In this document: in pieces, positions 38,439-56,042 of the stretch
Layout of the letters: every line of letters starts with the position of its first letter
Numbering within the stretch: position 1 is the stretch's first letter
DNA from: Verrucomicrobiota bacterium
Lineage (GTDB): Bacteria; Verrucomicrobiota; Verrucomicrobiia; Verrucomicrobiales; DEV007
Length of the DNA stretch: 60,038 nucleotides
Assembly (NCBI GenBank): GCA_020630975.1
Contig: JAHDID010000010.1
Coordinates: forward strand, 78,217-138,254
Direction of reading: 5' to 3'
The notes under the pieces: generated by a model
What the model saw: only the letters and a program-made list of their open reading frames with translations
Told to the model about the DNA's origin: nothing
Databases searched by the model: none
Position numbers and translations under genes: made by a program

Positions 38439-38669
38439 ATGAAGGCTTCGAAATTGACGCAGAAGGGGCAGATCACCCTACCAAAGGCTATGCGCGATGC
38501 GATGGGCTGGGGGTTGGAGACTCCGCTTACTTTTGTGAAATGTGACGATGGCGTTAAGATCATCGAGGTGCCTAGATCTGCCACATCTGTGATCGAGAGT
38601 ATGATGCAGGTCGAGTGGCAGGGGCCTACCTACGATGAGATAAAAGCTGAAACTCGATCGGAAGTATGA
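38439..38669 (+). CDS. AbrB/MazE-type antitoxin
   Basis: 76 residues with an N-terminal SpoVT/AbrB swapped-hairpin DNA-binding domain (KLTQKGQITLPKAMRDAMGW, residues 5-24). The C-terminal tail is acidic (YDEIKAETRSEV) and would wrap and neutralise the toxin. The stop overlaps the toxin start by 4 bp (ATGA at 38666). The pair is a type II toxin-antitoxin module of the VapBC kind with an AbrB-family antitoxin. Confidence 0.88.
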   Translation: MKASKLTQKGQITLPKAMRDAMGWGLETPLTFVKCDDGVKIIEVPRSATSVIESMMQVEWQGPTYDEIKAETRSEV

Positions 38670-39064
38670 CGCTGGTAGACACCAATGTGGTGCTGGATAT
38701 ATGGACTCAAGATCCCAAGTGGCTATCTTGGTCCAGCCAGGCGTTTCAGCAGGTGCTGACCTCGGGCCAAGCAGTGATAAATCCAGTAATCGCAGCCGAA
38801 TTGAGTTGGGGTTTTAGTAATGAAGCTGATTTTGAGTCGGCGTTGTTACGATCCAATATTGTGAAATACGACCTGCCTTGCCAGACCGCGTTTTTAGCGG
38901 GTCAGGCGTATCAGCTATATAAGAAAAGAGGTGGTATCAAGGGACGTGTCTTGGCCGATTTTTTCATTGGCGCTCATGCTGACTTCCTAGGTATTCCGAT
39001 AGTGACTAGAGATCCCTCTGGGTATCGGAGTTATTTTCCTAATGTAACGCTGATTTGTCCTTAG
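38666..39064 (+). CDS. PIN-domain ribonuclease toxin (VapC-like)
   Basis: 132 residues. The four acidic residues that bind metal are present: Asp5 (LVDTNVVLD), Glu45 (IAAELSWGF), Asp98 (VLADFFIGAHA) and Asp116 (IVTRDPSGY). The start overlaps the antitoxin stop by 4 bp, giving translational coupling with antitoxin first. VapC toxins cut tRNA or rRNA, most often initiator tRNA or the sarcin-ricin loop. The target here cannot be told from sequence. Confidence 0.9.
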   Translation: MTLVDTNVVLDIWTQDPKWLSWSSQAFQQVLTSGQAVINPVIAAELSWGFSNEADFESALLRSNIVKYDLPCQTAFLAGQAYQLYKKRGGIKGRVLADFFIGAHADFLGIPIVTRDPSGYRSYFPNVTLICP

Positions 39065-39248: not shown

Positions 39249-42089
39249 TTACTTTGCGGCCTCGACGATCATCTCGCCACGCATCAGGCGCCAGTGGCCG
39301 GGGAAGGTGCAGATGTAGGGATAGCGTCCTGGTTTAGTCGGTGTGGTGAATGTCTTTTCTACCTTCCCTGCATGAGGAATTTGCTCGGTAGAGAATAGGA
39401 CTGCCTCGTGGTCTGGGATGAAGTGCTTGGCCATGCCGTCTGGCTGCGCGGCCATGGTGTCGGCTAAGTCGCCGACTAGCTCGCCCTGGCCGGGCTGGGT
39501 GATGACGATGTTGTGCAGCATGTGGTCGGGATTGTCGAAGACGAATTGATACTCCTTGCCTGGCTGGACGGTGAAGGTTTTGACATTGAAGGCCATCTGC
39601 GAGGGCACGGCCTTGATGTAGATGCGACTATCGGTGACGGTGGCGTAGCGCTCATTCCAGCTATCGCGCCAGGCTAGGTGCTCGGCCTCGTCTTTTGCGT
39701 AGGTGATACCATCTACCGCATCGCCGATCAGACTGGCTAGGTAGAGGTCGATGGTTTCGCTGCGTTTGTTTTTCGCTGGTACGAAGTATCGGATATGGTT
39801 GATGCCTTGCTCGAGACTAATGGTCAGTTGGCCGTCTTTGGAATGAATACTACCGGTGAATCTCGATAAGGGGATACCATTCACATCGATGCACATGTAG
39901 GGATTGTTTCGGTAGCCGAGGATGGCGGTCTGCGGCTGGGCGCTCTTGATCCATAGTGAGCCGCCATCGGGATTGCGAGTGGTATGCCAGCCGGTAAGCT
40001 GGCAGTCGGGCGATACCTTTAGTAGGGGGAACTCTGGACTGATCGCAGGAGCGTCGTAGTTGCTGGCGAGGGACTGCATGTTGGCTAGCGGGCTGCCGGA
40101 TTTGGATTCGATCGACTGGACGAAGTCCGCCCACCAGCTGTCGGCTTTCTGTAGGTAACTGGCGGAGGACACGACATTCATCGTGGTGCGGGTGTCGCCG
40201 GTAGCAGCTAGGTCCTGGGCTATCGTCTTGGCCTCGTCGCCTAGTAGGGTGTGGTAGGCGCGCAGAGACTTGGCGGCTACACGTCGGAGGGATACGTCTG
40301 TGCTCGTAGCTAGCTGACGAAATAGGTCAGCTCCGCTTTCGAGATCGATGCGCTCTAGTAGCCACAGCAGTTCGATAGCCAGGATCGAGTTGTCTTTGGC
40401 TTTGGGTAGGCGTGCCTGGGTGGCTGCTAGCACTTGGTCGTCTGGTTTCTTCTCTAGCTCGTAACGAGCTAGCTCTCGCACGTTGACGTGCTGGTCGGAG
40501 AGCAGGTCGAGTAGTGTTTCGATGCTGGCTCCGCTGATCTGCGGTGGTGTCGATAGGTCAGCGCCTTTCCTGGTGACTCGCCAGATGCGGCCATTGCTAT
40601 AGTCGCGATTTTTATCGCGGATGGAGTGTTGCGCGTGGCCGATGATCGGGTAGTAAAAGTCGGAGACGTAGAGCGCGCCATCTAGGCCAAACTCCAAGTC
40701 CACTGGGCGAAATACTTTATTACGAGAGGTGAGTAGGGGAAGTGACGTGGCTGCCTTGGTCATGACGCCGTCGCGGAGCTCTAGTGGTGTGTATAGCACG
40801 GTGTTTTTACCTAGTAGGTGGCCAGTGACGACTCCACCCCGCCACTCCTCGGGGAAGTGGTCGCTACTGACGAACTCGATGGTGCAGCCCTTGTCATCGC
40901 GGAATGGCATACCGAAGTCGGCTGGACTGGATGAGCCTACGGGGGTGGCGATATTGTAGTAGTCGCAGTCGGTGATCTGCCCGCCGCCAAACATCTGGAT
41001 CGACTCGCCCCACTCATTCCACGAGATCTTCCACGGATTGGGGTGGGCGGTCTGTCGCTCGATGGATAGTGAGTGGTTCCTCGGATCGAAGTGTAGGATC
41101 GCTACATTTTTGGTGCGTACGGGACCGTGCATGGTCTCGAACTGTCCGCGATGGAACAGCGCCTCGGTCAGGATGATGTCGCCCTGCGGCGTGCGCGATA
41201 GGTAGCCTCCATGGTGGGTATCGGTATCGTCGGCACCTCGGAGTAGCTCTACGGTCATATCGGCGACGTCGTCGCCATTGGTATCGCGTAGCCAGAGCAG
41301 CTTGCGCGCGACGGATACGACGATGCCGTCTTTGTAGAATACGAAACCATCTGGCAGCTTTAGTCCGTCGGCGAAGATGGTTTGTTTATCAGCGGTGCCA
41401 TCGCCATCGGTGTCTTCAAAGATCAGGATCTTATCATCGGAGAGCTCGCCAGGTACCGGCACAGGGTAGCTGGCGAAACAACACACCCACATGCGGCCTT
41501 TGGCATCGGTGTGGATCTGCAGGGGATTGATCAGGTCGGGGAAATCTTCGCTGGAGGCAAAGGCATTTACCTGATAGCCATCGGCTACGGTGAAGTCCTC
41601 GAGATCTTCCTCGGTAGTCTTGATTTCGCCTAGGCCTTTTCGAGGCTTTTTGTCCGGCGCTACCGCTACCGAGGTGGTCAGTGTCGGCATAGGCAGAGCC
41701 TGGCTCAGGTCCTGTGCTTGTTTCCAGATTGCTTCATCGAGTTGGTTGGCGAGCTTTAGGTGGTGAGGAATCTCGGCTTCGTACTCGAACTCGCGGGCAC
41801 GCAGTCCGTAGTAGTGGATGCCGTTGGCAGGCTTGTAGGCCATGGCGACTTCGTAGGCTTTGCGAGAGACCAGCTCGCGGAGGCGGGCGAAGCCGGGTGC
41901 ATTGTCGTCGACCTTAGTTTCTCCATCGCTTAACTCTCTGGCTAGATAGCTAGCGACCATACGGCGACCATCTTGGGTTAAGTGGAAACCATCGGAAGTG
42001 ATAGGCTTTTCCTTTTTCGCTATCATTCGCGAAGTGAATCCGTACACATCGATATACCGAATACCGGTGTCTCTAGCTACCTGCTCCAT
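39249..42089 (-). CDS. C-terminal part of the split fusion: SGNH end, propeller dehydrogenase, HEAT, cupredoxin
   Basis: 946 residues from the ATG at 42089, but with no signal peptide and starting inside a domain. Residues 1-55 are the end of an SGNH esterase, with block V as SDGFHLTQDGRR (Asp33, His36). Residues about 160-520 are a sorbosone/glucose-dehydrogenase-like beta-propeller of the TIGR02604/DUF7133 type (LINPLQIHTDAKGRMWVC; ILIFEDTDGDGTADK). HEAT-like repeats run about 525-650. Residues 832-946 are a plastocyanin-like cupredoxin whose type 1 copper ligands are His859, Cys927, His932 and Met936. No CxxCH is present, so the cupredoxin replaces the usual cytochrome tail. The missing first part of the SGNH domain is in the adjacent upstream ORF, out of frame by one base. 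Confidence 0.85.
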   Translation of the reverse strand: MEQVARDTGIRYIDVYGFTSRMIAKKEKPITSDGFHLTQDGRRMVASYLARELSDGETKVDDNAPGFARLRELVSRKAYEVAMAYKPANGIHYYGLRAREFEYEAEIPHHLKLANQLDEAIWKQAQDLSQALPMPTLTTSVAVAPDKKPRKGLGEIKTTEEDLEDFTVADGYQVNAFASSEDFPDLINPLQIHTDAKGRMWVCCFASYPVPVPGELSDDKILIFEDTDGDGTADKQTIFADGLKLPDGFVFYKDGIVVSVARKLLWLRDTNGDDVADMTVELLRGADDTDTHHGGYLSRTPQGDIILTEALFHRGQFETMHGPVRTKNVAILHFDPRNHSLSIERQTAHPNPWKISWNEWGESIQMFGGGQITDCDYYNIATPVGSSSPADFGMPFRDDKGCTIEFVSSDHFPEEWRGGVVTGHLLGKNTVLYTPLELRDGVMTKAATSLPLLTSRNKVFRPVDLEFGLDGALYVSDFYYPIIGHAQHSIRDKNRDYSNGRIWRVTRKGADLSTPPQISGASIETLLDLLSDQHVNVRELARYELEKKPDDQVLAATQARLPKAKDNSILAIELLWLLERIDLESGADLFRQLATSTDVSLRRVAAKSLRAYHTLLGDEAKTIAQDLAATGDTRTTMNVVSSASYLQKADSWWADFVQSIESKSGSPLANMQSLASNYDAPAISPEFPLLKVSPDCQLTGWHTTRNPDGGSLWIKSAQPQTAILGYRNNPYMCIDVNGIPLSRFTGSIHSKDGQLTISLEQGINHIRYFVPAKNKRSETIDLYLASLIGDAVDGITYAKDEAEHLAWRDSWNERYATVTDSRIYIKAVPSQMAFNVKTFTVQPGKEYQFVFDNPDHMLHNIVITQPGQGELVGDLADTMAAQPDGMAKHFIPDHEAVLFSTEQIPHAGKVEKTFTTPTKPGRYPYICTFPGHWRLMRGEMIVEAAK

Positions 42090-42154
42090 GGTGGCGGTAT
42101 ACAGCTTGAGAACTGCAGTCCGCTTGTGGACATCGAAATAAGGGTGGCCTCCTT

Positions 42155-42180
42155 CTACATCGGCGAGACGAGTATATATT
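42155..42180 (-). other. frameshift junction inside the SGNH domain
   Basis: The upstream frame reads ...GSEYILVSPM and stops at TAG (42157-42155). The downstream frame is open from about 42178 and reads ...DVEGGHPYFDVHKRT into the 42089 ATG with no break in domain sense. The frames differ by one missing base (or two extra) at 42155-42180. From the SGNH consensus (LVSP followed by an acidic residue) the lost base is most likely just after the CCG at 42163-42161. With one base restored, 44926 to 39249 is exactly 1,893 codons. No slippery heptamer is present. A perfect AAGGAGG follows the stop at 42154-42148, so reinitiation downstream cannot be excluded. Confidence 0.75.
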
Positions 42181-44926
42181 CACTCCCTGGGTGGCGGCCT
42201 TTGATCAGGTCGATGTAGATGCGCAGATCTTTTTCGAAATTCACAAGTCCCTCCGCGCCCGCGAATGCTTCATTCATACCAAAACACATGACCACCCGAT
42301 CGCACTGTAGCTGGCTGGAAATGTAACCGAGATGATTGCCAAACTTCGCTGGGCGGATGCGGAAGCCCACCTCGTCGCCAGTGTAGGCCAGTGAGCGGAA
42401 TTGGTGCCTTTTGCTAGGGTCTGCTGCGTGTAGGATCGCCTCCATCGTGCCATCCTCTTGCAGTCGCTCGACGAAGCTATTGCCGTAGAAAATAGTCAGC
42501 CCACCGGTGTCCAGCTTGGATGGTTTTGCGGTAGCAGGGGCAGCGGCTACTGGCTCTGGTTTCGGCGCTGGCTTAGCTGCTGGTTTCGCTTTCGCTGGTT
42601 GCTTCTTTTTCTTGGGAGAGGTCAGCTTCAGTGGATTGATCGCTGTATCGGCAGAGGGGACTGGCTGCCCTGCTGCCCAAAAGACTCCATTGACCATGAG
42701 CCGCATCGATTCAGGCACGGCGAAGTCGCCGGTGTGGCCGAGCGAGGTGGAGAAAGTCTTGCCACCCCATTTATTGGTCCAAGTCCAGGCGACAGTATCG
42801 GTCATCTCTGGCTGTAGCTGGTGGGTGCCAAATTGATTGGTGCGCACACTGGGCTCGGCCGACTTGGATTTACCAGTGCCCATGAGCAGTGGGGTGATAC
42901 CTGGCTCTAGTTTGGTCAGGTAGAGCGTGCCTGGGGATGGCCATTGATCAGGAATCTCGATACCGGTGAATATTGGGTGATCCTTGGCACCGTCGGCTAG
43001 TTCTAGTTGTGTGCCACCAGCTAGGTGGATCAGGTAGGGAGTGCCGAGAGCATCTTTGCCAAAGTCGTTATTCCATTTCGCCTGTGGGTGATCTTTCGGG
43101 TAGTTAAAGCCATGGGTGCTGGTGCGAAAGCCGACTACAGGTTTGCCTGACTCTAGGTAGCGAGTGATGTGGCCGAGTTGCTCGTCTTCGAGTTTGAGAA
43201 AGCGGGTGAATAAGATCGCGATGTCGGCATCGGCCAGAGCCTCTAGGCCAGGTAGGCCGCGTTTATCCTTCTCGGGATCCCAGTCGGGGTTCACCACGGT
43301 AGTAGCTAGGCCGAGCCGCTCTAGCTCCTGGGCGAAAAGCGGCATACTGCGCTGGGGCGAGTAGTGGTGGGTGCCGACTATGATCACGGCATGAGGCTTT
43401 TCTGCGGTTTTAGCTGTTGTTTCTGGGGCACCGTTTTTCCATAGTTCGATGGTATCGACATCGTTACTCTGCTCTGGGCCTGGTGTGCTGCGACCTCGAT
43501 CGACATCCTGCTGTAGCTGGGCTAGTAGCGCTTGCGCTTTTTCGGGATGAGTTTTGTAGAGATTATTTTTCTCTCCCGGATCATCGGCTAGCTGATAGAG
43601 CTGAGCGGGATAGGGGCTTTTCTTCGCTTGGCTCTCAGTGGGCGATGTCCAGCCGCCAGAGCCTCTGGATAGCACGAGCTTGTAGTCGCCCTGGCGGTAG
43701 GCAAAGTGGCCAGATATCGAGTGATGGACGATACCCGCCCGCTCGGTCTCGATCGTCTCGCCTTTCAGCGCGGGGAGAAAGCTGACGCTGTCCTCACCAG
43801 CATCGGCAGGCAGCTCGGCATCGACCAGCTCAGCGCAGGTAGCGAGTAGATCGGTCATGCAGATGGTCTGGTCGCAGATCGATCCAGCCTCGACCGCATC
43901 TGGCCAGCGAGCGATGAATGGCACACGGTGGCCGCCCTCCCAGATGTCTGCTTTCGACCCGCGGTATTGGGCGCTAGGGTAGTGGCCTTTTTTTTGCAGC
44001 TCGGCTATGCCGCCTGCCTTTGAGCAGCCATTGTCGCTGCTGACGATGACTAGGGTGTTTTCTTTCAGCCCCGCGTCATCCACGGCATCGATGATCTCGC
44101 CGATGATATGGTCGGTCTGCATCTGGAAGTCGGCGTATTTATTGAGCCCACTTTTACCGATCCACTCCTCGGTCGGTAGGATGGGCGTGTGTGGCGAGGT
44201 GAGCGGCACGTAGACAAAGAATGGTTTTTCGCTGTCCTTTTTATCGTGGATGTAGGCAGCAGTCTTGCGGCCGATCTCTGGGAGTACATCCGCTCGGTCG
44301 AATCCCTTGGCCGTCGAGGATTTGCCATCCTGCGGGATCTCGCCGACGAAGCGGTCGCCCTGGATGTAGATGTAGGGGGCCATATCCAGCGAGGCGGATA
44401 TACCGTAGAAATGGTCGAAGCCGACGTCGGTGGGGCCATTTTTGATCTGGCCACTCCAGTCGATATTTAGAGACTTAGGTCGCCTGCCGACTGGTAGTGG
44501 GCCGTCATCGATAGTTGGCATGTTCATACCGAGATGCCATTTTCCGATCAGGGCCGTGTGGTAGCCATGGTCTTTCAGCAGAGAGGCCACCGTCATCCGG
44601 TCGGGTGCGATCAGCGGCTCGCTGTAGCCCCAGAGCATGTGTTTCTGGAGTTCGGTGCGCCAGTTATAGCGGCCGGTGAGCAGGCTGTAGCGGCTCGGTG
44701 TGCAGACCGATGAGGTCGTGTGTGCATCGGTAAAGATCATGCCCTCGCGAGCCAGCCGATCCATGTGTGGATTCGGGAGTTTGCCCCGCTCGGGATTCAG
44801 GATCTGCACATCGCCATAGCCCATATCATCGGCGTAGATGAAGACGATATTCGGCGGCTCCGCAGCAGAGGCTACTAGAGAGCTGAGGTAGCCGAGCAGT
44901 AGGGCGAGAGTGGTTTTGAAATTCAT
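42155..44926 (-). CDS. N-terminal part of the split fusion: sulfatase, ThuA-like, SGNH start
   Basis: 923 residues from the ATG at 44926 (signal MNFKTTLALLLGYLSSLVAS); an upstream in-frame start has no signal. Residues 23-500 are an arylsulfatase-type sulfatase with the maturation Cys75 in CTPSRYSLLTGR, GKWHLGMNM, and metal residues in YADDMGYGD and VSSDNGCSK. About 510-765 is a ThuA-like domain (HAVIIVGTHHYSPQ; GFRTSTHGFNYP). A Lys/Ala/Pro linker runs from 772 to about 806. From 808 an SGNH esterase begins (GNSFVERL, Ser817; GMNEAF, Asn885) and is cut off by the stop at 42155. The remaining SGNH block and further domains lie in the next ORF. The combined product would be about 1,892 residues. 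Confidence 0.87.
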   Translation of the reverse strand: MNFKTTLALLLGYLSSLVASAAEPPNIVFIYADDMGYGDVQILNPERGKLPNPHMDRLAREGMIFTDAHTTSSVCTPSRYSLLTGRYNWRTELQKHMLWGYSEPLIAPDRMTVASLLKDHGYHTALIGKWHLGMNMPTIDDGPLPVGRRPKSLNIDWSGQIKNGPTDVGFDHFYGISASLDMAPYIYIQGDRFVGEIPQDGKSSTAKGFDRADVLPEIGRKTAAYIHDKKDSEKPFFVYVPLTSPHTPILPTEEWIGKSGLNKYADFQMQTDHIIGEIIDAVDDAGLKENTLVIVSSDNGCSKAGGIAELQKKGHYPSAQYRGSKADIWEGGHRVPFIARWPDAVEAGSICDQTICMTDLLATCAELVDAELPADAGEDSVSFLPALKGETIETERAGIVHHSISGHFAYRQGDYKLVLSRGSGGWTSPTESQAKKSPYPAQLYQLADDPGEKNNLYKTHPEKAQALLAQLQQDVDRGRSTPGPEQSNDVDTIELWKNGAPETTAKTAEKPHAVIIVGTHHYSPQRSMPLFAQELERLGLATTVVNPDWDPEKDKRGLPGLEALADADIAILFTRFLKLEDEQLGHITRYLESGKPVVGFRTSTHGFNYPKDHPQAKWNNDFGKDALGTPYLIHLAGGTQLELADGAKDHPIFTGIEIPDQWPSPGTLYLTKLEPGITPLLMGTGKSKSAEPSVRTNQFGTHQLQPEMTDTVAWTWTNKWGGKTFSTSLGHTGDFAVPESMRLMVNGVFWAAGQPVPSADTAINPLKLTSPKKKKQPAKAKPAAKPAPKPEPVAAAPATAKPSKLDTGGLTIFYGNSFVERLQEDGTMEAILHAADPSKRHQFRSLAYTGDEVGFRIRPAKFGNHLGYISSQLQCDRVVMCFGMNEAFAGAEGLVNFEKDLRIYIDLIKGRHPGSEYILVSPM

Positions 44927-45010
44927 AGAATGGTTGTTGGAAGAGGTTACCGAGACACGGGGATCAGTGGCATACGCGATCGTGGTGGTGGATGACAAAT
45001 GAATGGGCAA

Positions 45011-47629: not shown

Positions 47630-50059
47630 ATGCGCAGGCTTTTCTTCCAAATCACAAAGGGCTACCTGGTTCACTTCCGGCGGAACGTATTGGCGCCATT
47701 TCTTGTTTACTTATGCGTGCTGGCATTCGTTCCATTTACGATTGCTGGAGACATCACTGTCGCTGCCGATGGGGAGTCAGACCATGTCATCGGCTACGCG
47801 GGAAAGCCTGATCAAAAGGGAGCTCCTAAGCGAATCGCCTCCAGCGCTGGCCAAAGTGAAGCCTCTTCTTATAAGGAGCCCGTCCCCACTCCGACCTTTT
47901 CCGACATCCCGTATGGTCCCCACAAAAAACAGGTGCTCGATTTCTGGCAGGCATCATCGGCCTCGGCCGACCAGCCTGCACCGTTGGTCTACTACATCCA
48001 TGGCGGAGCCTGGCAACACGGTAGCAGGCAGAATATAAACGGCTGTGTTGATGTCGCAGCTTGTCTGGAGGCGGGTATCTCAGTGGTGGCAGTCGAGTAT
48101 CGTTTTATCAAGGAGGCGAAAACTGAGGGTATCGCGCCACCTGTCAAAGCACCCTTGAGCGATGTCGCCCGAGCTTTGCAGTTTGTGCGCAGCCAGGCGG
48201 GGGAGTGGCATATCGATAAGCAGCGGATCGCTGCGACTGGCGGCTCTGCTGGAGGTTGTTCTTCGCTCTGGCTGGCCTACCACGACGATATGGCAGATCC
48301 TGACAGCGACGATCCCATCGCTCGTGAGTCGACCCGACTGCTCTGTGCGGCGGTCCGGATACCGCAGAGCACTCTTGACCCAAAGCAAATTAATCAGTGG
48401 CTGGGTCATATTCCCTATGGCGGTCATGCCTTTGGCGTAAGCAATCAAGACTTTCTCAAGCAAAGGCAAAAGCTACTCCCCTGGATAAAGGAGTATTCAC
48501 CCTATGCTCACGTCAGCGCAGATGATCCACCAGTGGTCGCCTACTATGCAAAACGATTCGAAAAGGATCTGAAAGCCCATAGTCCACAGTACGGATTTCA
48601 TCTGGCAAAGCGCTGCAAGGAACTGGGCATTTCCTGCGAGATCAGGGGCCTGGAGAACACTCCCATGGAGAATGTTCGCGAGCTGACAGCTCATTTGATT
48701 GGCAAGCTCACGGCACCAGTCGTCGATCCTGACATTGCTACAGATCAGAAGAAGACGGCCAATCAACCCAATGTCCTGTTCATAGCCATTGATGACCTGA
48801 ATCACTGGGTCGGGCACCTGGGGCGAAATCCTCAGGCGAAAACACCGAATATTGACCGCCTGGCAGCCATGGGCACGTCCTTTACCAACGCGCATTGTGC
48901 TGTCCCCTCATGTGAGCCATCGCGCTGCGCGATCATGGGCGGCAGGCGTCCGTGGACTTCGGGTTGTTATCTCAACGGGCATCAGTGGCAAGAGATTCAA
49001 CCCGTGGGCCAGGGGCTGAGCGCGCAGTTTTTGCAAGCCGGATACTATGTAGCTGGTTCGGGGAAAATATACCATTCGATGAAATACTTCCCTGGGGAGT
49101 GGAGCGAATATATGCCGAAGGAAGGATTGAGTAACAATGGTCCGAGGGTTCAAAGTTACGATGGTTATCTTGTCGATAAAAAACACCCGCAACTCAAAGA
49201 CCAGGACATCATCGATTGGCATAGCGTCGATTACTGTATCGAGCGGATAAACGGAAGTAAAGGTGACGCCGATAAACCATTTTTCCTCGCCTGCGGTCTG
49301 TATAAACCTCATCTCGCCTTTGTCGCGCCCCGAAAATACTATGCCGATTTCCCACTGAATTCCATCAAACTGCCTCCCCATCGCAAAGATGACCTGAAAG
49401 ATATACCCAATGCCGGAGTGAGAATGGCGAACCCAGGCGGAGATCATCGGAAATTTCTGAAATCCGGTCGCTGGAAAGCCGCGATCCAGTCCTACTTGGC
49501 GACTATCGCCTATACCGATATGAATGTCGGTCGCTTACTCGACGCCCTCGATAGCAGTCCCAAAAAAGACAATACCATCATCGTGCTGTGGAGTGACCAC
49601 GGCTGGTCACTGGGCGAGAAACAGCATTGGAGAAAATTCGCCCTGTGGGAAGAGACCACCCGCACTCCCTATATTTGGGTAGTGCCGGGCCTGACCAAAG
49701 CGGGAACCCGGTCCAGCCGTGCTGTCGACCTGATGAGCCTCTACCCAACACTTTGCGAACTCGCCGATATCGAGCGCCCCAAACACGTCGAGGGCCACAG
49801 TATCGTTCCGTTACTAAAAGATCCCAATCACCCCTGGGAACATCCGGCGATCTCGACCCATGGAAAGGGAAATCACGCCGTCAGAACCGAGACTCATCGT
49901 TACATCCGTTACGCCAATGGCGATGAGGAGCTATACCATAACCAGGATGATCCCTACGAGTGGACGAATCTCGCTAAAGATAAAAAGTACGATCAACTGA
50001 AGCAGCAGTTGGCCCGGCATCTTCCTAGGGAAGAGGTTGAAGCTGCGATTAAAAAGTGA
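47630..50059 (+). CDS. esterase-sulfatase fusion protein
   Basis: 809 residues with a signal or anchor at about 20-40. Residues 85-360 are an alpha/beta-hydrolase of the BD-FAE/carboxylesterase type: oxyanion HGGAWQHG (124-131), nucleophile Ser206 in GGSAGG. Residues 378-800 are a sulfatase close to the iduronate-2-sulfatase group: NVLFIAIDDLNHW, Cys428 in CEPSRCAIMGGRR, SGKIYH, GLYKPHLAFVAP and VLWSDHGWSLGEKQHW. One chain thus carries an acyl-esterase and a sulfatase, which fits a glycan that is both acylated and sulfated. The upstream 180 bp show no gene. The next gene, also a sulfatase, is 89 bp downstream. Confidence 0.9.
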   Translation: MRRLFFQITKGYLVHFRRNVLAPFLVYLCVLAFVPFTIAGDITVAADGESDHVIGYAGKPDQKGAPKRIASSAGQSEASSYKEPVPTPTFSDIPYGPHKKQVLDFWQASSASADQPAPLVYYIHGGAWQHGSRQNINGCVDVAACLEAGISVVAVEYRFIKEAKTEGIAPPVKAPLSDVARALQFVRSQAGEWHIDKQRIAATGGSAGGCSSLWLAYHDDMADPDSDDPIARESTRLLCAAVRIPQSTLDPKQINQWLGHIPYGGHAFGVSNQDFLKQRQKLLPWIKEYSPYAHVSADDPPVVAYYAKRFEKDLKAHSPQYGFHLAKRCKELGISCEIRGLENTPMENVRELTAHLIGKLTAPVVDPDIATDQKKTANQPNVLFIAIDDLNHWVGHLGRNPQAKTPNIDRLAAMGTSFTNAHCAVPSCEPSRCAIMGGRRPWTSGCYLNGHQWQEIQPVGQGLSAQFLQAGYYVAGSGKIYHSMKYFPGEWSEYMPKEGLSNNGPRVQSYDGYLVDKKHPQLKDQDIIDWHSVDYCIERINGSKGDADKPFFLACGLYKPHLAFVAPRKYYADFPLNSIKLPPHRKDDLKDIPNAGVRMANPGGDHRKFLKSGRWKAAIQSYLATIAYTDMNVGRLLDALDSSPKKDNTIIVLWSDHGWSLGEKQHWRKFALWEETTRTPYIWVVPGLTKAGTRSSRAVDLMSLYPTLCELADIERPKHVEGHSIVPLLKDPNHPWEHPAISTHGKGNHAVRTETHRYIRYANGDEELYHNQDDPYEWTNLAKDKKYDQLKQQLARHLPREEVEAAIKK

Positions 50060-50148: not shown

Positions 50149-52113
50149 ATGATTTTCAGTTTTATAGACAAAGCAACTATTGCCCTAGTGATCGCCTTCT
50201 CTCTACGGTTGACTTCGGCCTACACAGAAGAACTATCCGATCGACCCAACATCCTTTGGCTGGTCTGCGAGGATATCAGCCCACATCTTGGTTGCTATGG
50301 CGACCAGCAGGCGCACACTCCATACCTCGACAAGTTTGCCGCGGAGGGCGTACGTTTCACTCGTGCTTATGCCAATTCTCCAGTGTGTGCAGTCGCTCGT
50401 AGTGCGCTCCTGACCGGTATGCATTCGAGCAGCATCGGCACTCAGCACATGCGTTCCCGGCCGATGGTGCCGGATTCTATACCGCTCTACCCGCGGGTGT
50501 TTAAACAGGCTGGATACTATTGTTACAACGGCCAGAAAACTGACTACAACTCAGCCAATCACGAGGCGGATAAAGATGAATTCTGGGATGTGAGTCGGGG
50601 CCAGCAAAGCATCAGCAGGCTGCCTAAAGAAAGACCTTTTCTGGCGGTCTTTAACACAGCCGTTACCCATGAAGGTCAGATCAGAAGCGATCGTGAGGAG
50701 AGTTATACCATGACTGGGCAGATACCCGAGTCCCCCCGGATCCCGCCAGAAGAAATCCAACTGCCGCCTTACCACCCCGACTTGCCTGAGATTAGGTACG
50801 ACTGGGCGCGATTTTATGATCAGATTACTTTGATGGATTCCATCGTTGGCGCGTGGCTGGACGATCTGGAGAAAGAGGGATTGGCCGAGAATACCATCGT
50901 GTTTTTCTACTCCGATCACGGCGGCATGCTCTCGCGCTCAAAACGCTTTATCTTTAATGGCGGTACTCAGGTTCCATTGGTCGTTCGGGTACCGAAAAAG
51001 TGGCAACACCTTGCCGCATTCGATTCAGGGAAATATATAGCTGGATCGGTTAATGACGAATTGGTTCAGTTCGTCGATTTCCCAAAAACCATCCTATCCA
51101 TGGTGGGTGTTCAGCCACCGGAATTGATGCAGGGGCGAGTTTTTATGGGATCGGGAAAAGAGCCTCCGCCACCTTTTCTCTATCTATATCGGGACCGGCA
51201 GAATGATCGTTACGACTTTTCACGGGCGGTGACCGACGGTCGCTATTACTTGATCCGCAATTTTATGCCGCATCGCCCGCGCGGGCAGGAACCTGAGCAC
51301 GGCTATAATGTTCACCGTAACTGGCGAGCCTGGCGGGATTGGTATCTGAAAAATCCCAAAGTCGCGGACCCGGTATATAGCCGGTTTTTCAAGCCCAAAC
51401 CTGTGTTGGAATTCTACGACCTAGAGAGTGATCCCTGGCAAATCAACAACTTGGCTTCTCATGCTGATCATCGGGAGCGTATCGCCACCATGGAAGACGC
51501 TCTCTACGACTGGATGATGAAAACCCGCGACACCGGCCTGATTCCCGAACCGATGTGGTATGACTTCGTCGGTGATGAGAAACCTTTCAAAACCATCTAC
51601 GACTACGCACAGAGCGACGAGTTTCCGGTCGATCGAGTGCTTGAAGCTGCCAACGTCGCCAGTAAAGCTGATCCGGACCTGTTGTCGACCTATCTAGAAA
51701 TGCTGGGTGATCGGCATTCTTTGGTTCGGCACTGGGCAGCTTATGGTATTTTCCTCGTCGGCGAGAATACTCCGGGGATTCAGGACGCACTCCGGCAAGT
51801 GATCAATGGCGATGCTCATTCAGCGAATCGCACGATGGCAGCACAAGCCCTGGCTCGCTGTGGCGATCCAGACACAGCTTTCAAAGCCCTCATGGAAGAA
51901 GTCAATGCCGAGAAGGATGAATACAAGCGACTCTTGGCAATCAATGCGCTTCAGTATGGCAGGGTCGACGACCGCGTGAGCCGTGAGCAATGGGAAGTCT
52001 TAGCAGAAAAAAAGTGGTCAAAAGAATCCCCCGATCCATTGGCTTGGGTTTTTCGTAGAAGCATTCCTGCTTACACCTTGGAAATCTGGCCCAGGCGAAT
52101 GATCGTGGAGTAA
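50149..52113 (+). CDS. secreted sulfatase with non-canonical CAVAR site and HEAT-like tail
   Basis: 654 residues, signal peptide 1-25. The domain begins NILWLVCEDISPHLGCYG, the pattern of heparan-N-sulfatase-like enzymes. The maturation motif reads CAVARSALLTG (Cys80). The consensus is C-x-P/A-x-R, so Val in the third position is unusual. Metal residues in FYSDHGGMLSRSK and the GQKTDYN and FNTAVTHEGQ segments are present. Residues about 500-640 are helical HEAT-like repeats (LVRHWAAYGIFLVG; RTMAAQALARCGD). It is co-oriented with the esterase-sulfatase gene 89 bp upstream. Whether Cys80 is converted to formylglycine is uncertain. Confidence 0.88.
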   Translation: MIFSFIDKATIALVIAFSLRLTSAYTEELSDRPNILWLVCEDISPHLGCYGDQQAHTPYLDKFAAEGVRFTRAYANSPVCAVARSALLTGMHSSSIGTQHMRSRPMVPDSIPLYPRVFKQAGYYCYNGQKTDYNSANHEADKDEFWDVSRGQQSISRLPKERPFLAVFNTAVTHEGQIRSDREESYTMTGQIPESPRIPPEEIQLPPYHPDLPEIRYDWARFYDQITLMDSIVGAWLDDLEKEGLAENTIVFFYSDHGGMLSRSKRFIFNGGTQVPLVVRVPKKWQHLAAFDSGKYIAGSVNDELVQFVDFPKTILSMVGVQPPELMQGRVFMGSGKEPPPPFLYLYRDRQNDRYDFSRAVTDGRYYLIRNFMPHRPRGQEPEHGYNVHRNWRAWRDWYLKNPKVADPVYSRFFKPKPVLEFYDLESDPWQINNLASHADHRERIATMEDALYDWMMKTRDTGLIPEPMWYDFVGDEKPFKTIYDYAQSDEFPVDRVLEAANVASKADPDLLSTYLEMLGDRHSLVRHWAAYGIFLVGENTPGIQDALRQVINGDAHSANRTMAAQALARCGDPDTAFKALMEEVNAEKDEYKRLLAINALQYGRVDDRVSREQWEVLAEKKWSKESPDPLAWVFRRSIPAYTLEIWPRRMIVE

Positions 52114-54158: not shown

Positions 54159-56042
54159 TCACTGCAGGCTTATCTTTCCATAAAACTGTGGCATCTGGTT
54201 GGCGTACCAAAAAGTGGGTGACCATTGGTAGGTTTTCTTTTCCCCGGCTTTGTAGTGGTGGCGCACGATCTGACCACGCCAGGTTGTCAGGTTGGCGGTG
54301 TCGACTTTCAGATCCTTTAATGGGATGGCCATTTCGATACTCCAGGACTCGTCTTGTATCGTGGCGGCTACTTTGGCGTGGCTATTCCACTTCGGATTCT
54401 TCTGGGTAGCATCGTATAGCGTGCCTTTGGGATTGATGGCGAAATGGTAGTAGGTCTTTTGAGCATTATTGGTATCTAAAAAGAACTCGATCGAGTCGTC
54501 TTCCCAGACATCGCCATCTGGAGTGGCGATCTGCTGCTGCAGGTCGCGGACGATGGGCTCTTCGCAGTGTACGCCTAGATAGAGGTGGCTGGTGTCGTAG
54601 CTGAGCCATGCCTGAGTGTCGACTGGCATGTAGCCGTCGGCCTGTCGAGGTATCAGCCGAGAGACGGTGGGTGGTGACTGCCAGAGTGGATCATCCAGGC
54701 GGCCGTCGATCTCGGGCGCTGCTGCCGTGTTCTTGGTGATGTGCATCTTCTCTGGGTGTTTTTTGACATGCTCGGTCAGGTCCAGCGGTAGATGCACCAT
54801 GCGCTCTAGGTGAAAGGATTGGTCGGGTGCCTGGAAATGGGCGTGCATCTTGGGTAGGGGGAAGTAGGTGGATACCGTGCCCTGATGATTTGCGGTGAAT
54901 GTCAGTTGCTGCTTTTCGCCGGGCTGTAGTTCGATCTGATCTCTACGCGGCGATACCGTCCAGTGGTCGGTAGCAGGGAGTAGCCAGAGAAACTTGGCGG
55001 TGAGTGGGGTGTCGAGTGGATTCTCTAGGCTCAGGGTGAGAGTCTGGTTCTCGAATGGGTAGGTCTGGGTAAAGTTTTCCTCGAAGCGGATCGAGCGCCA
55101 AAATTTCTGTTTGGCCTCGGTAGAGGCATCATCGGGTAGCATACCGTCGAGGGTTAGGTTGATCATTCGCGGGCCCTTATCGCTCATGGTGATCCAGGTG
55201 GCGTGGTCGAATTCGCCGAATACCGAGCCGCGTAACGCGCTGCCGCCGCCGGTGGTGCCGAGAGTGTAGTAGTTTGCCTCGTTGCGCTCGTACTGGGTAT
55301 AGCGATGCACATGGCCTGCGTACACGGTGTGATCGCGTCCGGCCAGGGCCGCTTCGATCTGTGGCCAGCCGGTGTTCGATTTTTTGATCACGGGTTTACC
55401 GTTGATGTTTCGCCGTATGCCCTCCTCGGTCAGCCACAGTGGCTGGTGGATGAATACTATCGTCCAGCGCACATCATCATGCTCAGCGAGCTGTCGCTGA
55501 GCCCATGCGATCTGCTGCTCGCCTAGATAGGGGCGAGTCGACTCGCCATCCTGCGTGTTTAGGCAGAGGAATAGCACGTTTTTGTAGGTGAATGAGTAAT
55601 AGCGGACGCCAAACATCTCGTCCCAGATACGGTCCATCAGAGCATTGCTGACATCGTGATTTCCCGGTAGGTAAAAGAACGGCATCTCAAAGCGCTCGGC
55701 AAAGCCATTGAATTCCTGCCATTGTCTACGGATCTCTTTTTCATCGCGCTGCCAGTTCCCACCCGCGATGAGATCACCTACCGATATAACGAACTCTGGC
55801 TGCATTTCATTGAGTCTAGCCACCGCGCGGGGGAAGACTCCTGGTCGCATACCGCCAGACCGATCGCTGACGATGGCGAACTGAAAGTCGAGCGGGTCGT
55901 TTTTAAAAGGGCGCTGCGTCCACGGTTTCTGCAGGGTGGGCACGCTGTGGTCAAAGTCTTGGTCTGCCTCTGGACCCGTTTGCGGATAGATCGAGCCGAT
56001 TAAGCTATACCACAGGGCCAAAAATACGATAGGGTACCTCAT
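54159..56042 (-). CDS. secreted metallophosphoesterase with CBM9-like domain
   Basis: 627 residues, signal 1-20. Calcineurin-like phosphoesterase domain about 50-300: FAIVSDRSGG (Asp60), ISVGDLIAGG (Asp90), LPGNHD (128-130), FIHQPLW (His199) and AGHVHRY. The usual D-x-H of the first block is D-R-S, a variant typical of this group. A beta-sandwich follows (about 320-430). Residues about 440-627 are a CBM9-like domain (IDGRLDDPLWQ; WEDDSIEFFLDT) seen in carbohydrate-active proteins. Divergent from the beta-lactamase-fold gene, with only 2 bp between start codons. Confidence 0.88.
   Translation of the reverse strand: MRYPIVFLALWYSLIGSIYPQTGPEADQDFDHSVPTLQKPWTQRPFKNDPLDFQFAIVSDRSGGMRPGVFPRAVARLNEMQPEFVISVGDLIAGGNWQRDEKEIRRQWQEFNGFAERFEMPFFYLPGNHDVSNALMDRIWDEMFGVRYYSFTYKNVLFLCLNTQDGESTRPYLGEQQIAWAQRQLAEHDDVRWTIVFIHQPLWLTEEGIRRNINGKPVIKKSNTGWPQIEAALAGRDHTVYAGHVHRYTQYERNEANYYTLGTTGGGSALRGSVFGEFDHATWITMSDKGPRMINLTLDGMLPDDASTEAKQKFWRSIRFEENFTQTYPFENQTLTLSLENPLDTPLTAKFLWLLPATDHWTVSPRRDQIELQPGEKQQLTFTANHQGTVSTYFPLPKMHAHFQAPDQSFHLERMVHLPLDLTEHVKKHPEKMHITKNTAAAPEIDGRLDDPLWQSPPTVSRLIPRQADGYMPVDTQAWLSYDTSHLYLGVHCEEPIVRDLQQQIATPDGDVWEDDSIEFFLDTNNAQKTYYHFAINPKGTLYDATQKNPKWNSHAKVAATIQDESWSIEMAIPLKDLKVDTANLTTWRGQIVRHHYKAGEKKTYQWSPTFWYANQMPQFYGKISLQ

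Follow-up and report, generated by a model that had tools for sequence, protein, structure and literature searches.

On the minus strand of a 60,038-nucleotide stretch of a Verrucomicrobiota bacterium genome (GCA_020630975.1, contig JAHDID010000010.1, positions 78,217 to 138,254; hereafter the window), two long frames lie head to tail (42155-44926 and 39249 to about 42158). They probably stem from a lineage-specific gene fusion in which a sulfatase was joined to an ancestral multidomain chain, the copy in the window being split inside an SGNH esterase domain; the intact chain would have been a sugar-processing enzyme. The first open reading frame (ORF; 42155-45010, minus strand), with a natural ATG start at 44926, carries a likely signal peptide, the sulfatase, a ThuA domain, and the front of the SGNH esterase. 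The second ORF (39249-42089, minus strand), whose frame stays open upstream to 42164, carries the back of the esterase, a propeller, HEAT-like repeats, a beta-rich stretch, and a cupredoxin. Pfam matched Sulfatase and ThuA in the first frame and DUF7133, Copper-bind, and the tail of Lipase_GDSL_2 (profile 121-177 of 178, under the cut-off) in the second. The span from 44926 to 39249 measures 5678 bases, that is, 1892 codons plus two bases. The coordinates, domain order, and codon count of a preliminary description made from the sequence alone were correct.

The ThuA-to-cupredoxin chain in related genomes

We scanned 160 loci, counting those with ThuA and SGNH in one ORF, and found 21 besides the window. 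They belong to the same genus (G027, G028, G029, G031, G022, G026, G023, G019, G015, G005, G021, G030, G012, and G020), the same family (G057, G055, and G065), or another family (G151) or lie on contigs L096 and L104, and a second ThuA-SGNH chain in the window's own genome (G000:C70) is counted among them; some of the 21 are divergent ThuA chains. Alignment A1 gave 18 loci, and six that equal G027, G028, G023, G057, G029, and G031 were counted once. The SGNH domain was uninterrupted in all 21 loci, and the propeller was reached in 20. A broken copy would appear as ThuA and SGNH without a propeller; the only locus lacking the propeller, G023, leaves its contig after a whole SGNH domain. At the C terminus, a cupredoxin is present in 10 of the loci; another 6 end within the sequence covered and give no match to one, and 5 leave the contig. 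A search of the genome contigs with the C-terminal half of the gene returned no match.

The closest relatives are G027 and G028, with 73-80% identity in ThuA and the SGNH front (ThuA, 75 and 73%; SGNH front, 74 and 80%, respectively) and 78% in the propeller. The Ser, Gly, Asn, and His blocks of the SGNH domain are all present in the window (YGNS, GDEV, GMNE, and DGFHL in the motif rows; Tyr replaces Asn in the Asn block of one relative, L096). The first three lie in the esterase front (42158..42505, assigned by homology and the motif rows), and the His block sits in the other frame. According to the preliminary description, the two frames hold complementary halves of one SGNH domain. Indeed, both parts align to adjoining stretches of one domain in the orthologue L040 (405-515 and 525-626), and Lipase_GDSL_2 is matched whole in the orthologue L041 (profile 2-178). 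That one ancestral chain ran from ThuA through to the cupredoxin, as one gene by descent, is well supported.

Relatives differ in what follows the cupredoxin. G027, G028, and others extend past it, and G151 does not; because G151 ends at the cupredoxin like the window, the missing C-terminal extra domain says nothing about decay of the window copy and was dropped as a sign of it. The second chain of the window's own genome (L047 6241-11253; G000:C70) runs ThuA-SGNH-propeller-cupredoxin with a 3keto-disac_hyd domain last. In G029 (L042 4652-12844), a 2731-amino-acid (aa) chain has the same four modules and then more, including a second ThuA-like stretch, and on an Opitutales contig (L097 1-2163) one ORF holds the end of a propeller, a cupredoxin (61% identical to that of the window), and then a ThuA-like stretch.

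The N-terminal sulfatase

The sulfatase is not part of this conserved chain. It was absent before ThuA in 19 of the 21 relatives, the other two (G020 and G065) leaving their contigs there. None of the 13 relatives whose ORF start is in view has a sulfatase ahead of ThuA; in six more, the stretch starts inside the ORF, and the ORF length leaves 13 to 99 residues, too short for a sulfatase. Where the N terminus of a relative was inspected, a hydrophobic leader stands immediately ahead of ThuA. A conserved protein that begins with the sulfatase was therefore not confirmed.

What precedes ThuA in the window is, judged from sequence, a stand-alone enzyme joined in frame. A likely Sec signal peptide (MNFKTTLALLLGYLSSLVASAA; 44861..44926, read from the translation by eye) is followed by an S1-type formylglycine sulfatase (43433..44860; PF00884, 162.4 bits with a cut-off of 25; SGSH_C). 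Since its closest homologues, in G038 (63% identity) and G049 (61%), are open frames of 519 and 530 aa that match to residue 498, the sulfatase is complete. Its translation contains the motif CTPSR, of the form C/S-x-P-x-R that we take to be the maturation motif of S1 formylglycine sulfatases, and the genome has 17 matches over the cut-off to PF03781, the FGE family (assigned at family level). Its best solved matches were 7oze, a putative secreted sulfatase, and 6s20, an N-acetylgalactosamine-6-O-sulfatase, with 9s7x and the S1_15 entry 9bas among the others. A linker of about ten residues (43403..43432, from the translation and the limits of the homologue matches) leads to the ThuA domain (42656..43402; PF06283, 43.9 bits with a cut-off of 33.4), behind which a Pro/Ala/Lys-rich linker (42506..42655, from the translation) leads to the SGNH front. 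Because sulfatase and ThuA share one ORF in frame, the gene, when intact, would have encoded a single chain. In the scheme we propose, the ancestral exported chain ThuA-SGNH-propeller-HEAT-cupredoxin, intact in relatives, would have been joined in frame behind the complete S1 sulfatase; the sulfatase stop and the ThuA leader would have been lost, leaving a single signal peptide to export the entire chain.

The same pieces occur in other arrangements. In G261, a sulfatase (44%) and ThuA (68%) are neighboring genes in the order of the window; in G139, they are fused in the reverse order, ThuA-sulfatase (805 aa). The intact 2245-aa chain of G026 (L045 7086-13820) unites the full set of modules in a single frame (ThuA-like, SGNH, propeller, HEAT, cupredoxin, and sulfatase) but places the sulfatase last; its ThuA is 31% alike to that of the window and is not listed by Pfam at 0.001, and its propeller is about 40% identical. 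In L096, the first residues of a sulfatase follow the cupredoxin where the ORF leaves the contig, and this chain probably ends in a sulfatase like that of G026. Since the pieces are found elsewhere as neighbors, reversed, or with the sulfatase last, the order sulfatase-ThuA-SGNH-propeller-cupredoxin adds a new arrangement to a class of glycan-processing fusions whose parts are shuffled and is not a new kind of system. The preliminary description knew of no such architecture. No description of the order was found among the papers listed from the open-licence literature either, but related genomes show that it is one shuffled arrangement among several. Next to its orthologue of the window gene, G027 encodes an 1838-aa sulfatase-FG-GAP-propeller-HEAT-cytochrome c chain (L040 13629-19142).

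The frame break

The frames part within 42155..42180, as delimited by the ORFs, the site sequence, and the spacing in relatives, and the first ends with a TAG at 42155-42157. None of the 21 relatives breaks there, so the TAG is private to the window copy. The preliminary description had named, as evidence against itself, related loci with two separate genes and a conserved stop; in relatives the stop is not conserved, and it is the sulfatase and ThuA that are separate genes. The frames differ by -1 modulo 3, which had been taken for the loss of one base. In the SGNH loop of relatives, however, the fourth residue after P (or L) is acidic or Gln in 14 of 14 and in 19 of 19 loci (overlapping sets; the 19-locus search did not demand an acidic residue or Gln). 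Since this spacing is fixed, the sequence suggests that about four bases net are missing in the window, not one; a single-base loss would require an additional codon to be lost. In our scheme, such a small net loss inside the SGNH domain would have split the frame, and as the sequence is written, export would be possible only for sulfatase-ThuA-half-SGNH.

Behind the break, 969 codons follow without an in-frame stop. Of the positions fixed in nine relatives, the window keeps 113 of 118 in the propeller and 30 of 31 in the cupredoxin, 9 of 12 in the SGNH tail, and 11 of 15 in the HEAT region, and 3 of 36 are changed in the SGNH front. In our reading, the break is either young or an artifact. 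If it comes from an error of assembly or sequencing, the organism itself carries an intact gene for one chain of about 1,893 residues, and we would put this at slightly less than an even chance. The unbroken SGNH domain of all relatives and the stop-free, well-conserved sequence downstream argue for it, as does another sulfatase of the same assembly that is split across two frames (L127 1580-2464 and 2281-3123; G000:C158). On the other hand, a net change of about four bases at a site without a homopolymer is unlike the commonest read errors, and an oddly diverged tract begins at the same point.

If, instead, the break is genuine and of recent date, it has left a young pseudogene or a gene that yields only a secreted sulfatase-ThuA protein; this, too, we find nearly, but not quite, an even prospect. 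It would agree with the loss of about four bases rather than one, with the long branch of the SGNH tail (1.56 in the window versus 0.17, 0.41, and 0.45 in G151, G027, and G028) together with its three changed positions of 12, and with two short DUF7133 propeller fragments elsewhere in the genome (G000:C33:15200-15509), which fall in two small ORFs (71 and 82 aa) and are probably a gene remnant. Against it, the propeller and cupredoxin still look constrained, and the SGNH front, with few fixed positions changed, is not clearly accelerated (relative-rate p 0.065 to 0.75).

That programmed ribosomal frameshifting joins the two frames is highly improbable. A purine-rich, Shine-Dalgarno-like AAGGAGG does follow the stop, but the 146 bases up to the stop hold no slippery heptamer X-XXY-YYZ (Y = A or T, Z not G), and relatives read the SGNH domain in a single frame. 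With neither a heptamer of the scanned form nor conservation in relatives, frameshifting was rejected. Reinitiation of the second half was rejected as well: its in-frame ATG at 42089 lies >50 bases past AAGGAGG, and the product would have no leader.

A diverged tract behind the break

The esterase back, with the DGFHL block, falls into a fast-diverged tract of about 80 codons (41919..42158) that stands out in identity to G027 and G028 and in codon score. Across the tract, the window is 30% identical to G027 and 22% to G028, versus 53% between G027 and G028. Identity to G028 is 0.72 over residues 881-920, falls to about 0.25 over residues 921-1000, and returns to 0.78 over residues 1001-1040, whereas identity between G027 and G028 stays at 0.50-0.60 across residues 921-1000; G027 and G028 show no such drop, and G151 shows a slight one. 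The codon score is the lowest of the gene exactly from codon 924, and none of 1654 windows outside the tract is as low. These sharp edges suggest an imported tract, though no donor was found, and the back of the SGNH domain might have been replaced by a divergent homologous tract, the break being the left edge of the recombination.

We nevertheless consider such a replacement unlikely. An AU test did not reject orthology of the tract (p 0.378), the nearest row being the G027 orthologue, and no close donor turned up among 288 genomes of the order; for the same two reasons, a swap of the SGNH domain with a known paralogue was dismissed. Scores as low as that of the tract are not rare nearby (380 of 8947 windows in 16 neighboring genes), and its GC3 is not the lowest in the gene. 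The HEAT region is long-branched too (0.89 versus 0.15 and 0.22), and in the tree of 72 rows, from which the SGNH tail branch was taken, three others have branches of similar length or longer. Relative-rate comparisons gave a mixed picture. With G031 as the outgroup, the SGNH tail was faster in the window (13 versus 2 and 18 versus 4), and the other two outgroups gave p 0.049 to 0.15. Elsewhere in the gene, the propeller gave p 0.024 to 0.19 and ThuA reached p 3.5e-06 in one of six comparisons; the cupredoxin and the linker were not faster in the window.

Predicted folds and a possible pathway

The C-terminal half begins, behind the esterase, with the propeller (40557..41627; PF23500, 1e-52; TIGR02604, 162 bits with a cut-off of 122.2). 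HEAT-like helical repeats follow (40125..40529), seen as helices in the orthologue model; the HEAT_2 profile PF13646 reaches 17 bits in the window, under its cut-off of 27.7, and 27.8 in G029. Behind them come a beta-rich region without a named family (39675..40124; strands 870-959 in the orthologue model) and a type-1 copper cupredoxin of the auracyanin/azurin kind (39261..39602; PF00127, 39.1 bits with a cut-off of 21.2; 2aan, 6.1e-10). The model is that of the intact orthologue of G028 (L090) from SGNH to cupredoxin (pLDDT 78.8, pTM 0.72). In structural alignment, its propeller matched 6i1q with Z 26.5 (rmsd 2.9, 292 aligned) and 1cq1 with Z 25.3 (rmsd 3.3, 297 aligned); Z ranged from 23.5 to 26.5 for PQQ entries and up to 23.2 for HHIP and 22.7 for SMP30-like folds. 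The resemblance is thus to PQQ-dependent pyranose/glucose dehydrogenases (AA12; 6i1q, 6jt5, 1cq1), and it is this fold in the orthologue model, not a sequence match, that suggests sugar oxidation by the propeller. In Foldseek, the SGNH fold matched a putative hydrolase (4h08) and the acetyl-xylooligosaccharide esterase Axe2 (4oao), and the cupredoxin was nearest to auracyanin (6kol and 2aan). The ligand set of type-1 copper cupredoxins is His-Cys-His-Met, and these four residues are present in 10 of 10 aligned rows.

The C-terminal half of the window protein contains no CxxCH heme site. In L102, where ThuA is a separate gene, an SGNH-propeller chain that can be aligned from SGNH through the repeats has Cytochrom_C at its end. 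By sequence, heme and copper modules have thus been exchanged in the same terminal slot, cytochrome c in L102 and cupredoxin in the window.

For the enzymatic steps, substrate, and electron flow of the intact chain, we infer the following course. The sulfatase would remove sulfate esters and the SGNH domain acyl groups; the propeller would oxidize the exposed sugar, and ThuA would act on the oxidized product. Electrons would leave through the copper domain, placed where the relative has its cytochrome c, and the oxidized sugar would be cleaved, all as part of an exported pathway of oxidation that acts on sulfated, acylated glycans. The pathway is suggested by the propeller fold, by the heme/copper exchange, and by the 3keto-disac_hyd end of the second chain in the same genome; the 3-keto-disaccharide hydrolase family is tied to hydrolysis of 3-keto-sugars (PMC9007349).

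Several observations weigh against a fusion that worked in this way. No second genome with the order sulfatase-ThuA in one ORF was found among the 160 loci, an assembly fault or a chimera may lie at either junction, and the sequence just behind the break shows an odd degree of divergence. The best Foldseek E-value for the propeller belongs to a non-enzyme, HHIP (3ho4, 2.7e-9), ahead of a PQQ glucose dehydrogenase (5min, 2.1e-7), and the propeller profile matched no solved sugar dehydrogenase by sequence. PQQ sugar dehydrogenases have an R-N-P motif, and the window has PNP, with Pro in the place of Arg. The papers listed on ThuA from the open-licence literature (ten of 74) did not decide which reaction it catalyzes. 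Of the single exported chain uniting desulfation, deacylation, sugar oxidation, and copper electron transfer that was originally envisaged, the common ancestry from ThuA to cupredoxin and the sulfatase in the same ORF have stood; sugar oxidation goes back to the likeness of the fold.

Relation to known systems and significance

The window protein shares its propeller family, with a score over the cut-off, with the PVC-type heme-binding CxxCH proteins (TIGR02604/DUF7133, PF23500), and these likewise end in an electron-transfer domain, such as the cytochrome c in L102. It differs from them in its type-1 copper domain and in the sulfatase, ThuA, and SGNH domains in front, and because its C-terminal half has no CxxCH, it is not a full member of that family. 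Fusions of a sulfatase with another glycan-processing module are known from sulfatase-rich bacteria of the superphylum, where S1_7 is joined to GH10 or GH32 and S1_15 to GH29 (PMC6388578); the partner in the window is ThuA-SGNH-oxidoreductase-cupredoxin and not a glycoside hydrolase. In freshwater Verrucomicrobia, multidomain proteins with a Planctomycete-specific cytochrome c (PSCyt) are encoded near sulfatases and, as in the window, combine redox domains with carbohydrate modules, for which the authors suggest a role in carbohydrate metabolism (PMC5615132). Those proteins use PSCyt/PSD domains, unlike the window, and the word copper is absent from that text. By the same account, sulfatase-rich Verrucomicrobia have many multidomain redox proteins without an assigned role near their sulfatase genes (PMC5615132).

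The host genome is sulfatase rich, and the window holds further composite genes. A second esterase-sulfatase fusion, an 809-aa ORF with a BD-FAE alpha/beta hydrolase and then a full sulfatase, lies at 47630-50059 (plus strand) and is followed at 50149-52113 (plus strand) by a single 654-aa ORF with a sulfatase and then HEAT repeats. At 54159-56042 (minus strand), a calcineurin-like phosphoesterase is fused to a family 9 carbohydrate-binding module. Directly downstream of the gene, at 38666-39064 (plus strand), is a 132-aa ORF that resembles, by eye, a PIN-domain (VapC-type) nuclease.

Fusions point to activities that work jointly. The gene in the window, along with relatives in which the parts are unfused or reordered, would assign a common process to S1 sulfatases, ThuA, the SGNH esterase, and the dehydrogenase-like propeller. 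The terminal slot is taken by a cytochrome c in one chain and by a cupredoxin in another, and an oxidative route for sulfated glycans, possibly a 3-keto one, can thereby be put to a direct test. It is doubtful, though a real possibility, that the living population still has the unbroken gene, or had it until very recently, and that it encodes one exported chain that desulfates, deacylates, and oxidizes a sulfated glycan and passes the electrons to its own copper domain. If this were true, Verrucomicrobia would possess an oxidative route to sulfated polysaccharides that is complete in itself, and copper and heme modules could replace each other on one scaffold.

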